Source of the DNA: a virus
IMG/VR virus record: IMGVR_UViG_3300030047_000126
Coordinates: 1-23,091 of that record
DNA length: 23,091 nucleotides
Direction: 5' to 3' (one strand)
Shown here: piece by piece, positions 2,765 to 7,169 of the stretch
Layout: each line of letters opens with the position of its first letter
Position numbering within the stretch: the first letter of the stretch is position 1
The notes under the pieces: model-generated
Told to the model about the DNA's origin: nothing
Database searches by the model: none
Seen by the model: the letters and a program-made list of their open reading frames with translations, nothing else
Program-made: the position numbers and the translations under genes

Positions 2765-2926
2765 TTATTTTTTATTTAAACTATTTCTAATAAACATTTG
2801 CTTTATTTCTTCTCGTTGCTCTGGGGTAAAACTACCGTATATTTGTAACATAGATAGCTGGGAATTTTTAACTTCTTTACTCATTATTATTCGGGAGAGT
2901 CTTTGTGGGTTTATTTTTTTACTCAT
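2765..2926 (-). CDS. 53-aa basic protein translationally coupled to the helicase
   Basis: ATG at 2926 overlaps the helicase stop codon (ATGA), ending at TAA 2765. The protein is basic and helical: MSKKINPQRLSRIIMSKEV at the start, then YGSFTPEQREEIKQMFIRNSL. Gene position after a DnaB-like helicase and the ATGA overlap suggest a replication accessory role, for example in helicase loading, but no homology is recognised. Confidence 0.6.
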   Translation of the reverse strand: MSKKINPQRLSRIIMSKEVKNSQLSMLQIYGSFTPEQREEIKQMFIRNSLNKK

Positions 2927-4227
2927 AAATTAAATGCTCCTAATATTTTTTGTTGATATTCATCATAATCTTCAAATATTCCAGTTTTACCATCAAAAGA
3001 CATTTCAATCATTCCAACTCTTCCGTGTCTATTTTTTCTTATTGACCATTTCATTTTTACTGGACTACCTGAATTAATTTTATCTTTCCAATCTTTTATA
3101 CTTTCTTCTCCTATTCCTATTTCAATAGCTAAATCAGCTGATGAAGCGATAGCACCAGAACCCTTAAAACTCATTACAACATTATCGCCTGTTCTTGCTC
3201 CGTCATTTGATATTTGAGATAAAGTCATAATTGGAGTAGCTAATCTTTTAGCACATTGTTGTAATTCCAATGCACAATTTGTTATTGTTTCATATTCTGA
3301 ACGAGATCCTTTTATTGTCATAATCTGTATAAAATCTACAACAAATAAATCAACTGGGTTTGTTATATTTTCTTCATACATTGAAAATAATATTTCTGAT
3401 AATTCAGACATTCCAGTATGAATTGATAAATTACTATTTATTATTTTTTGAGTATTTTCTTCAACTATTTTTTTATCTTTTTGGTAACCCTTAATAATAC
3501 TAAGTCCATTATCGTTACTCATAGTTCCAAGTAAACGAGATAATATATCAACTGAACTCATTTCAAGAGAATAGAATACTACTCTCTTACCTTGTTTTAT
3601 TAAGTTTGAAACTATATTTAAACTTGTTGCAGTTTTACCCATACTTGTATAACCACCAATTATCCAAAAATGTCCTTTTCTTAATCCATCAATAACATCA
3701 TCAAGTTTTTTATAACCTGTTGAAATTCCAAGTAGTTCAAAACCATTTGCTTTTTTTTCTTGATATTCTTGTTTTCTTTCTTCAAATTCTTTTAAAACAG
3801 ATTGAATATCATTTTTTGAACCTTCTTCATTTCTTATATTTGATATTATATCTCTTTGAATACCAGATATATATTCTCTAACATTTTCTGATGGTAATTC
3901 TTCTACACCTTTTTGTAGTATTGTCCATAATTTAATAGCATTTGATACATCTTTTAAATCTTTACATATAGGTTCAATATCTCTAAAAGATAAATTACTA
4001 TTGTTAAGAAAATCAAAATTTATTCCTGCATTTTTAAATTCAATAAATTCATTTTTATCATTTCTAAAACAATCTACAATTATTTCAAAATGTTTTCCAT
4101 AATATTGAAAATCATTTTTATTTATTAAAGTCATAGCCTTAGATATAAAATTTTGTTTTATTCTAATTCTACTAATTAGCTCTATTTCAAATATTTTAGA
4201 TTTTATTTTTAAATCAATTAGTTTCAT
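2923..4227 (-). CDS. dnaB: Replicative DNA helicase, DnaB/SF4 family
   Basis: 434 residues. The RecA-like C-terminal domain begins near residue 163 (GISTGYKKLDDVIDGLRKG), with Walker A G191-GYTSMGKT199 and Walker B VDLFVVDFIQ near 292-301. The LSQISNDGARTG block (336-347) and the RKNRHGRVG segment (397-405) match the conserved C-terminal motifs of DnaB. Residues 1-150 are lysine- and isoleucine-rich and correspond to the N-terminal collar domain, though diverged. The enzyme unwinds DNA ahead of the fork as a hexamer. It follows the O-like initiator by one base, the place lambda uses for its helicase loader P, so this phage brings its own helicase instead of recruiting the host's. No SD. Confidence 0.93.
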   Translation of the reverse strand: MKLIDLKIKSKIFEIELISRIRIKQNFISKAMTLINKNDFQYYGKHFEIIVDCFRNDKNEFIEFKNAGINFDFLNNSNLSFRDIEPICKDLKDVSNAIKLWTILQKGVEELPSENVREYISGIQRDIISNIRNEEGSKNDIQSVLKEFEERKQEYQEKKANGFELLGISTGYKKLDDVIDGLRKGHFWIIGGYTSMGKTATSLNIVSNLIKQGKRVVFYSLEMSSVDILSRLLGTMSNDNGLSIIKGYQKDKKIVEENTQKIINSNLSIHTGMSELSEILFSMYEENITNPVDLFVVDFIQIMTIKGSRSEYETITNCALELQQCAKRLATPIMTLSQISNDGARTGDNVVMSFKGSGAIASSADLAIEIGIGEESIKDWKDKINSGSPVKMKWSIRKNRHGRVGMIEMSFDGKTGIFEDYDEYQQKILGAFNL

Positions 4228-4228
4228 A

Positions 4229-5062
4229 TTATAGTTTTATCTCATCTGACATTTGAGATAGTGTTTTAGGTGTTTCTTTCGACCGCTTTGATATTTTATA
4301 CTTTGCGACATATTTTTCTGACATACATAAATCAAAACTCATTTTATTGTCATCTTTGATTGCTTTATCGTTTATGAAATAGTTAAACAATCCTTTGAAG
4401 TCTGAAATAGTAAATCTGTCGCGATTATAAACACTTCGTATTGGGTAGTATATATTTTTCATTACTACATCGTTTATATTTACTTTCAAATATTCGGCGA
4501 TAGTTTTTTGCCAAAGTAAACCAACTTTTATTAGTTCGGCATTTTCTTCTTTAGATATTTTAGGTATTCTTTTCTTACTTATAGGATTTCCTTCTGTGTC
4601 TACATTTACATAGTTATACATAATTTCTTCTAAGCTAGCTAATAATAAACTCCCTTTCTTTTGTATAATTTCTTTCTTTCTTTTGTGTGTTAACACGCCT
4701 TTACTAGTTTCGGTTAACACGCCTTTACTAGCAGTAGTAAATACGCCTTTACTAGTTAACACGCCTTTACTACCCCATTTTTCCCAGTCTTTATTGAACC
4801 TATATTTATTATTTTCCTTAATAATAATCTTTTTAAATGTAAGATTTTTTATTGTTTTTACTACTGTTGGTCTTGATAATCCTGTCCATTTCTCAAATTG
4901 TGATAAAGAGATAAAATCTTCCTTTTTTTGAAATCCATATGTTTGCCTTATAACCCAAAAAGTTATTTGATATTCTGAGCCTAGTAAACACGCCTTTACT
5001 AATGAAGAAATAATCTCATTTGCTATTGAAGTAAAACCATTTTCTTTCTGTGGACTAGCCAT
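4229..5062 (-). CDS. Lambda O-like replication initiator
   Basis: 277 residues. Residues 1-95 match the phage replication protein O N-terminal (winged-helix) domain: ENGFTSIANEIISSLVKACL, YQITFWVIRQTYGFQKKEDF, then LSQFEKWTGLSRPTVVKTIKNL. This domain binds origin iterons. Residues 98-125 are a low-complexity insert with four SKGVLT/SKGVFT repeats followed by basic KRKKEIIQKK. Those repeats are simply translated DNA iterons (see 4689-4773). The C-terminal half (about 170-277) is the part that in lambda contacts the helicase apparatus. It is followed at once by the DnaB-like helicase and preceded by a 72-aa gene. The function follows from family and gene order; origin binding itself is inferred. 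Confidence 0.85.
   Translation of the reverse strand: MASPQKENGFTSIANEIISSLVKACLLGSEYQITFWVIRQTYGFQKKEDFISLSQFEKWTGLSRPTVVKTIKNLTFKKIIIKENNKYRFNKDWEKWGSKGVLTSKGVFTTASKGVLTETSKGVLTHKRKKEIIQKKGSLLLASLEEIMYNYVNVDTEGNPISKKRIPKISKEENAELIKVGLLWQKTIAEYLKVNINDVVMKNIYYPIRSVYNRDRFTISDFKGLFNYFINDKAIKDDNKMSFDLCMSEKYVAKYKISKRSKETPKTLSQMSDEIKL
4637..4688 (-). other. AT- and purine-rich stretch, candidate DNA unwinding element
   Basis: Directly beyond the four iterons in the direction of the O-like gene, the coding strand is almost wholly A/G with T-rich islands (AAAGAAAGAAATTATACAAA). Lambda ori has the same arrangement: iterons, then an asymmetric AT-rich tract that melts. The role is inferred from position. 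Confidence 0.5.
4689..4773 (-). repeat. Four iteron-like sites inside the O-like gene, putative replication origin
   Basis: Consensus CTAGTAAAGGCGTGTTAAC (coding strand). Copies lie at 4689-4707, 4713-4731, 4737-4755 and 4755-4773, spaced 24, 24 and 18 bp. Copies 1 and 2 are identical, copy 4 differs only at its last base and copy 3 has two changes. Copy 3 is a perfect hyphenated dyad (TAGTAAA, six bases, TTTACTA) and copy 4 nearly so. Lambda ori likewise has four iterons within O. Confidence 0.8.
4984..5002 (-). repeat. Fifth iteron-like site, read in a different codon frame
   Basis: The plus strand reads GTAAACACGCCTTTACTAA, about 210 bp upstream of the cluster in gene direction and near the start of the O-like gene. 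With the preceding two bases it is a perfect dyad TAGTAAA-CACGCC-TTTACTA. Here it encodes LVKACLL, not SKGVLT, so the conservation is at DNA level. It could be an autoregulatory or outlying origin site. Confidence 0.75.
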
Positions 5063-7117: not shown

Positions 7118-7146
7118 ATTATACAACCTACAATACAATATGTAAA
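7118..7146 (-). promoter_or_regulatory. Leftward early promoter, leaderless type
   Basis: Minus strand: -35 TTTACA (7146-7141), 17-bp spacer, -10 TATAAT (7123-7118), then six bases to the ATG at 7111. It is the best sigma70-type match in the window and probably drives the early operon. It diverges from the rightward promoter at 7168-7195, with the 18-nt motif between them. Confidence 0.8.
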
Positions 7147-7151
7147 ATAAA

Positions 7152-7169
7152 AACTGTGCATAACTTTTT
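7152..7169 (-). promoter_or_regulatory. 18-nt shared motif, copy C, between divergent promoters
   Basis: AAAAAGTTATGCACAGTT on the minus strand. It lies 5 bp from the leftward -35 and touches the rightward -35 (7168-7173), so a bound protein could affect both promoters. The core is DnaA-box-like (TTATGCACA). Confidence 0.6.

Follow-up and report, generated by a model that had tools for sequence, protein, structure and literature searches.

A putative replication origin in the O-type initiator gene of an uncultured phage and a candidate strand-specific element of O-type origins

Known in-gene origins and the initiator locus of the window

The origin of phage lambda lies in gene O, where four inverted-repeat iterons, placed in mixed reading frames, directly follow the coding DNA of the O-family N-terminal domain, and a purine- and AT-rich tract lies downstream. 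P22 (gene 18 and gene 12) and phage L (gene 18) likewise have an O-like initiator with in-gene repeats, and a DnaB-type helicase of their own comes next (P22-like BIS08P22; PMC8022706), and it has already been stated that lambda, P22, and L carry different iterons, each in its own initiator gene (PMC8022706). Shiga-toxin phage origins contain six iterons in O, and P27-derived plasmids need the extra ones in order to replicate (PMC7466680). How a lambda-type initiator chooses and holds one strand in the melting region is still described generally, in terms of AT-richness and torsion. For the DnaA-trio and the DUE repeats of iteron plasmids, single-strand binding by the initiator has been proposed (PMC10797057), and reviews state that DUE repeats differ between replicons (PMC10797057).

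We analyzed a 23,091-nt stretch of viral DNA, here called the window (positions 1 to 23,091 of IMG/VR record IMGVR_UViG_3300030047_000126). An O-like replication initiator gene of 277 aa was located at 4229..5062 on the minus strand, with matches to PF04492 (E 1e-20, residues 6-96) and to phrog_678, 'replication initiation O-like' (2.6e-22, PHROG). Its N-terminal winged-helix DNA-binding domain (residues 6-96; 4775..5047, minus strand) was assigned from the Phage_rep_O (PF04492) match together with an AlphaFold model, in which O residues 1-97 form a confident winged helix (pLDDT 88.9) with four helices and a two-stranded wing. A fold search with this model returned nothing at E <= 0.001; the best PDB folds, weak at E 4e-3, were Crp/Fnr- and MarR-type winged-helix regulators, and a PDB sequence search gave no relative of O. 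The C-terminal domain (residues 148-277; 4232..4621, minus strand), the presumed helicase contact, was 57% identical to that of a related locus, L004. The next gene in the operon (2923..4227, minus strand) encodes a DnaB-type replicative helicase (PF03796, 4.1e-39), 51% identical to the L004 helicase and of the same type. An Erf annealing protein and NinG are encoded further along after the helicase, and the early region, which runs on one strand, is lambdoid/P22-like. Promoter-like matches near the O gene occurred at chance level only.

The locus resembled lambda in the succession of an O-family N-domain, four inverted-repeat iterons right after its coding DNA, and a purine tract, and the order of iterons and tract noted in the preliminary description matched that of annotated lambda. 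It differed from lambda in another iteron sequence with a GC-rich centre, an extra distal iteron, and a DnaB-type helicase instead of a P loader as the next gene, in which it was P22-like. Compared with P22 and L, the iteron sequence, the distal iteron, and the C-terminal domain differed. As in the Shiga-toxin phages, iterons extend beyond lambda's four, but theirs adjoin the cluster, whereas the extra one of the window lies 229 nt upstream. The features of a lambda/P22-type origin in O, namely the N-domain, at least three iterons, their retention at the DNA level, the downstream tract, and an adjacent helicase, were all found, while the P-type loader downstream of O that marks lambda proper was absent. 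We consider it highly probable that the iteron cluster and the tract form the replication origin of this phage and that this origin lies within the phage's own gene for the O-type initiator. The lambda-style origin first proposed for this O-like gene was thus retained, on the PF04492 gene, the lambda order, and the DNA-level retention of sites, and was refined to a P22-like helicase partner. GC skew showed no turn at the site, either in the window or in a 37.5-kb sister contig, and all genes run one way; since this one-way gene order swamps the signal, the skew was uninformative on the place of the origin. Because the record is a 23-kb fragment, another origin may lie elsewhere.

Iterons and their retention at the DNA level

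The four cluster iterons, all on the minus (gene) strand, were identified by consensus match and are, in gene order, GTAGTAAAGGCGTGTTAAC (4755..4773), CTAGTAAAGGCGTATTTAC (4737..4755), and two copies of CTAGTAAAGGCGTGTTAAC (4713..4731 and 4689..4707), with 1, 2, 0, and 0 mismatches to CTAGTAAAGGCGTGTTAAC. A fifth, distal iteron (4984..5002, minus strand; 2 mismatches) lies inside the N-domain coding DNA in another frame. Counted from 0, the sites start at nt 61 (distal), 290, 308, 332, and 356 of the O gene, and the centres of the four inverted-repeat cluster sites fall +10 to +76 nt from the N-domain end. The second iteron and the distal site coincide with perfect dyads, TAGTAAA-N6-TTTACTA, at 4735-4754 and 4982-5001, respectively. 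The preliminary description was borne out in the five sites, in the two perfect 7-bp dyads, and in the peptide LVKACLL encoded by the fifth site in its other frame; its statement that the cluster sites encode SKGVLT held for three copies, but the fourth encodes SKGVFT. The iteron centre is GC-rich (GGCGTG) in the window versus A-rich in lambda and most relatives, so DNA bending may differ. An exact search of IMG/VR for the iteron found the cluster only in records of the same phage; single matches in other records were taken as chance.

Dinucleotide shuffling of the window (100 shuffles) yielded zero sites. Among 20,000 synonymous recodings of the O gene, five sites arose in none, and the top count of four was reached once. 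Codon concordance within the cluster had p = 1.4e-4, and the exact codons of LVKACLL, given codon usage, p = 5.8e-5; in a harsher test that permuted local codons alone, the fifth site by itself had p = 0.045. By these tests, the sites exceed both chance and amino-acid constraint, and selection has acted on them at the level of DNA, not of peptide.

Comparison with two relatives separates the parts of the locus. The nearest, L056, has an N-domain 63% identical to that of the window and carries sites at nt 63, 240, 291, 331, and 355 (motif GGTAAAGGCGGGTATACC), also in a second frame, while its C-terminus and next genes differ from those of the window. The DNA half-sites were kept in L056, and the peptide SKGVLT was changed to GKGGYT. 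In L004, the N-domain is unrelated to that of the window, with no match in Pfam, and the gene contained neither iterons nor ACAAAAGA, the element described below, after the N-domain. The comparison of peptide and site in relatives that had been suggested at the outset was therefore answered by one relative with a changed peptide and kept half-sites, and by another with an exchanged N-domain and no sites. These two patterns support the lambda-style reading and indicate two modules, one of N-domain, iterons, and melting element, the other of C-domain and helicase. Sister contigs were uninformative: L001 and L002 were DNA-identical in the O gene, and L003 equals the window at 100%. Alignment of the C-domain with further relatives found, beyond records of the same phage, L004 only. 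Separately, we observed that L004, the locus with the domain swap (3497-4390), has at 3921-3950 two 15-nt repeats, ACTTTACTCTACTTA/ACTTAACTCTACCTA, which may belong to another type of origin.

We then consider the family. From 160 O-like loci fetched, each gene was scanned for families of gapless 16-mers, with 40 synonymous shuffles as the control, and a pass required three or more copies. In-gene iterons above the synonymous-shuffle null were found in 82 of 101 O-like genes made non-redundant at 70% identity; 78 of the 82 had a compact cluster and were used for later counts. The iteron motif varied from phage to phage, the cluster started at a median of nt 320, spacing was mostly 17-24 nt, and 65 of the 78 clusters used more than one reading frame. 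This variation extends known ground, since the difference in iterons between lambda, P22, and L was already on record (PMC8022706), and an origin in O is itself known.

The repeats could alternatively have been selected as protein, SKGVLT with a Lys-rich linker, and owe their DNA likeness to recent tandem duplication. In accordance with this, three SKGVLT copies and one SKGVFT copy are in the same frame, spaced by multiples of 6 nt, and the linker between the O domains is Lys-rich. However, the fifth copy lies at a distance of 229 nt and is read in another frame, L056 encodes GKGGYT and places sites in a second frame as well, family clusters predominantly mix frames, and motif copies exceed the synonymous nulls. 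A peptide-level explanation was mostly refuted by the frame mixing, the L056 peptide, and the recoding nulls, and we regard it as scarcely credible.

Several genes of the survey stood apart. The O-family genes of L048 (Halomonas YPHTV-1), L049 (Virgibacillus Mimir87), and L050 (Bacillus SDFMU_Pfc) had no in-gene iterons and no ACAAAAGA element at the post-iteron place, and the origins of these three probably lie elsewhere; a metallo-hydrolase is annotated upstream in L048 and L049. The O genes of L153 and L192 contained ten iteron-like copies each, some in regularly duplicated blocks, and these expanded arrays suggest origin growth by internal duplication.

Distal and wing iterons

The region upstream of each cluster was scanned with that cluster's own matrix in the 78 genes. 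A strong extra site was found in 30 genes, compared with 5.7 expected from synonymous recoding and 0.8 when matrices were swapped between phages. In 25 of the 78, the extra site lay in or beside the wing-coding DNA; in 24 of these, measured from where a conserved Trp codon ends, its centre fell at -53 to -62 or -40 to -44 nt. The commonest placement of the site was exactly 68 nt upstream of the first iteron. Of the wing-site genes, 22 of 25 fell into one clade of 33 rows (SH-aLRT 93), in a tree of few columns with weak forks. The clade includes the window and L056. The window itself has no wing site and carries a site at nt 61 instead.

We regard the fifth site of the window as a variant of the family distal site. 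It may instead be a codon by-product and not an O site, the cluster still being the origin. The local-codon permutation value given above leaves some room for this, as does the position at -229, which is shared with L056 alone. Against it, the site forms a full 7-bp dyad, as only one other does, its exact codons are improbable in the codon-usage test, L056 has a weaker counterpart at nt 63 that encodes a different peptide, and distal sites in the family far exceed both expectations. A by-product is thus unlikely, though less so than the peptide-level explanation. As a variant of the family distal site, we infer that it may act as an accessory O site, in looping, or as a transcription brake.

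A candidate strand-specific element after the iterons

A purine-rich, presumed unwinding element follows the cluster at 4648..4687 (minus strand). The AT- and purine-rich tract claimed in the preliminary description was upheld in its purine content (80%, top 0.5% of window 40-mers) but not in its A+T content; A+T richness was rejected as a hallmark, being 72.5% compared with ~74% in the local region and so unexceptional background. Two copies of ACAAAAGA lie in the tract on the minus strand, copy 1 at 4679..4686, assigned by motif match and the family-wide test, and copy 2 at 4657..4664, assigned by motif match and in a different frame. The tract is marked by this repeated element and not by its A+T content. 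Lambda and the P22-like phage also have two copies each, and those of the P22-like phage stand in two frames, as in the window.

Across the family, the element after the last iteron reads [C/T]AAA(A)GA[A/C]A, typically ACAAAAGA, and TAAAGAAA in Bacillota, most often with two or three copies per gene, at intervals of 12-15 nt along the gene strand. Within 90 nt of the iterons, we counted 174 copies in 73 of 78 genes, compared with a synonymous null mean of 48.7 and maximum of 68 (300 draws), and the reverse complement was found in one gene of 78. Copies were distributed 29/83/62 over the three frames, with more than one frame in 44 genes. The first two 30-nt bins held 116 and 53 copies (169 in the first 60 nt), with at most 5 per bin elsewhere, and element density outside O genes was ~60-fold lower. 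The signal was recovered in two disjoint halves of the gene set. It was found whether the partner was of DnaB, DnaC, or P type, and spanned O-type phages of Bacillota, Pseudomonadota, Planctomycetota, Ignavibacteriota, and CPR-associated records.

The lambda copies of ACAAAAGA are located at 39121-39128 and 39136-39143. Among cis-acting lambda ori mutations, ti12 is a C to A change at 39122, and r95, r96, and r99 remove 39123-39134, 39139-39153, and 39120-39131, respectively (PMC6022878). Comparing these reported positions with the motif, each of the four changes a ACAAAAGA copy. When supplied in trans, O encoded by the ti12, r95, or r96 allele complements (PMC6022878). Lambda carrying r99 or ti12 is reported to be impaired at least ten-fold, with O activity unaffected (PMC4488673). 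Lambda O is known to bind AT-rich ssDNA (PMC7466680). We infer that O may read ACAAAAGA on one strand. Since r99 and ti12 also reduce O binding to the origin (PMC4488673), their effect may alternatively be exerted through double-strand binding beside iteron 4.

Operators offer another explanation of the sites, which would then serve O self-repression or a roadblock of transcription, with the true origin elsewhere. The sites are palindromic like operators, the distal one is early in the gene, and the origin activity of the sites is a prediction. Nevertheless, they are within the gene and not at a promoter, and both where they lie and the element that comes after them agree with lambda, in which cis mutations at this place impair replication. 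We consider the operator explanation very improbable, if marginally less so than selection as peptide.

Under the origin reading, O dimers would use their N-terminal winged-helix domain to bind the four palindromic iterons, and bound O would wrap or bend the DNA. O would then open the purine-rich tract just downstream of the iterons. The repeated ACAAAAGA element may serve to retain one strand of the tract, onto which the phage's own DnaB-type helicase would be placed by the C-terminal domain of O. The distal iteron would serve O as an additional binding site, its probable role being either to stabilize the complex by looping or to adjust transcription across the gene.

We propose, as a suggestion whose chances we judge evenly balanced, that a single sequence-specific element, ACAAAAGA (TAAAGAAA in Bacillota), is shared by O-type phage initiators, recurs every 12-15 nt of the gene strand right behind the iterons, and is recognized as single-stranded DNA by the N-domain that these initiators have in common, independently of iteron sequence and helicase partner. 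Many of the origins would add a fixed-position iteron within the DNA that encodes the wing of the domain binding it. Such an element would be the phage counterpart of the DnaA-trio. It resembles the DnaA-trio and DUE repeats in being short, repeated, strand-specific, and located in the melting region, and differs from them in initiator family and motif. If the proposal is true, a shared single-strand element would explain lambda ti12 and the small ori deletions. One conserved strand-specific element, struck by a classical lambda ori point mutation, would make the question of strand choice testable in lambda, and an O domain, mixed-frame iterons, and then ACAAAAGA would give a sequence rule for origins in uncultured phages. 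In the open-access full text searched, neither an element common to the family nor an iteron at the wing position was found described. Older comparisons of lambdoid origins (for example of lambda, phi80, and 82) may have noted the A-rich repeats in those few phages.

Other repeats were observed in the window. DnaA boxes (TTATNCACA) numbered 3 versus 1.65 expected, which was not significant. An exact 26-nt inverted pair, AAAAAGTTATGCACAGTTTTTATTTT, at 2746-2771 and 7144-7169 flanks the replication region and contains TTATGCACA, a DnaA-box-like 9-mer. Furthermore, positions 1-290 consist of a 27-nt tandem array (10.7 copies, 94% matches) in an open frame with SETDxMVAL repeats.
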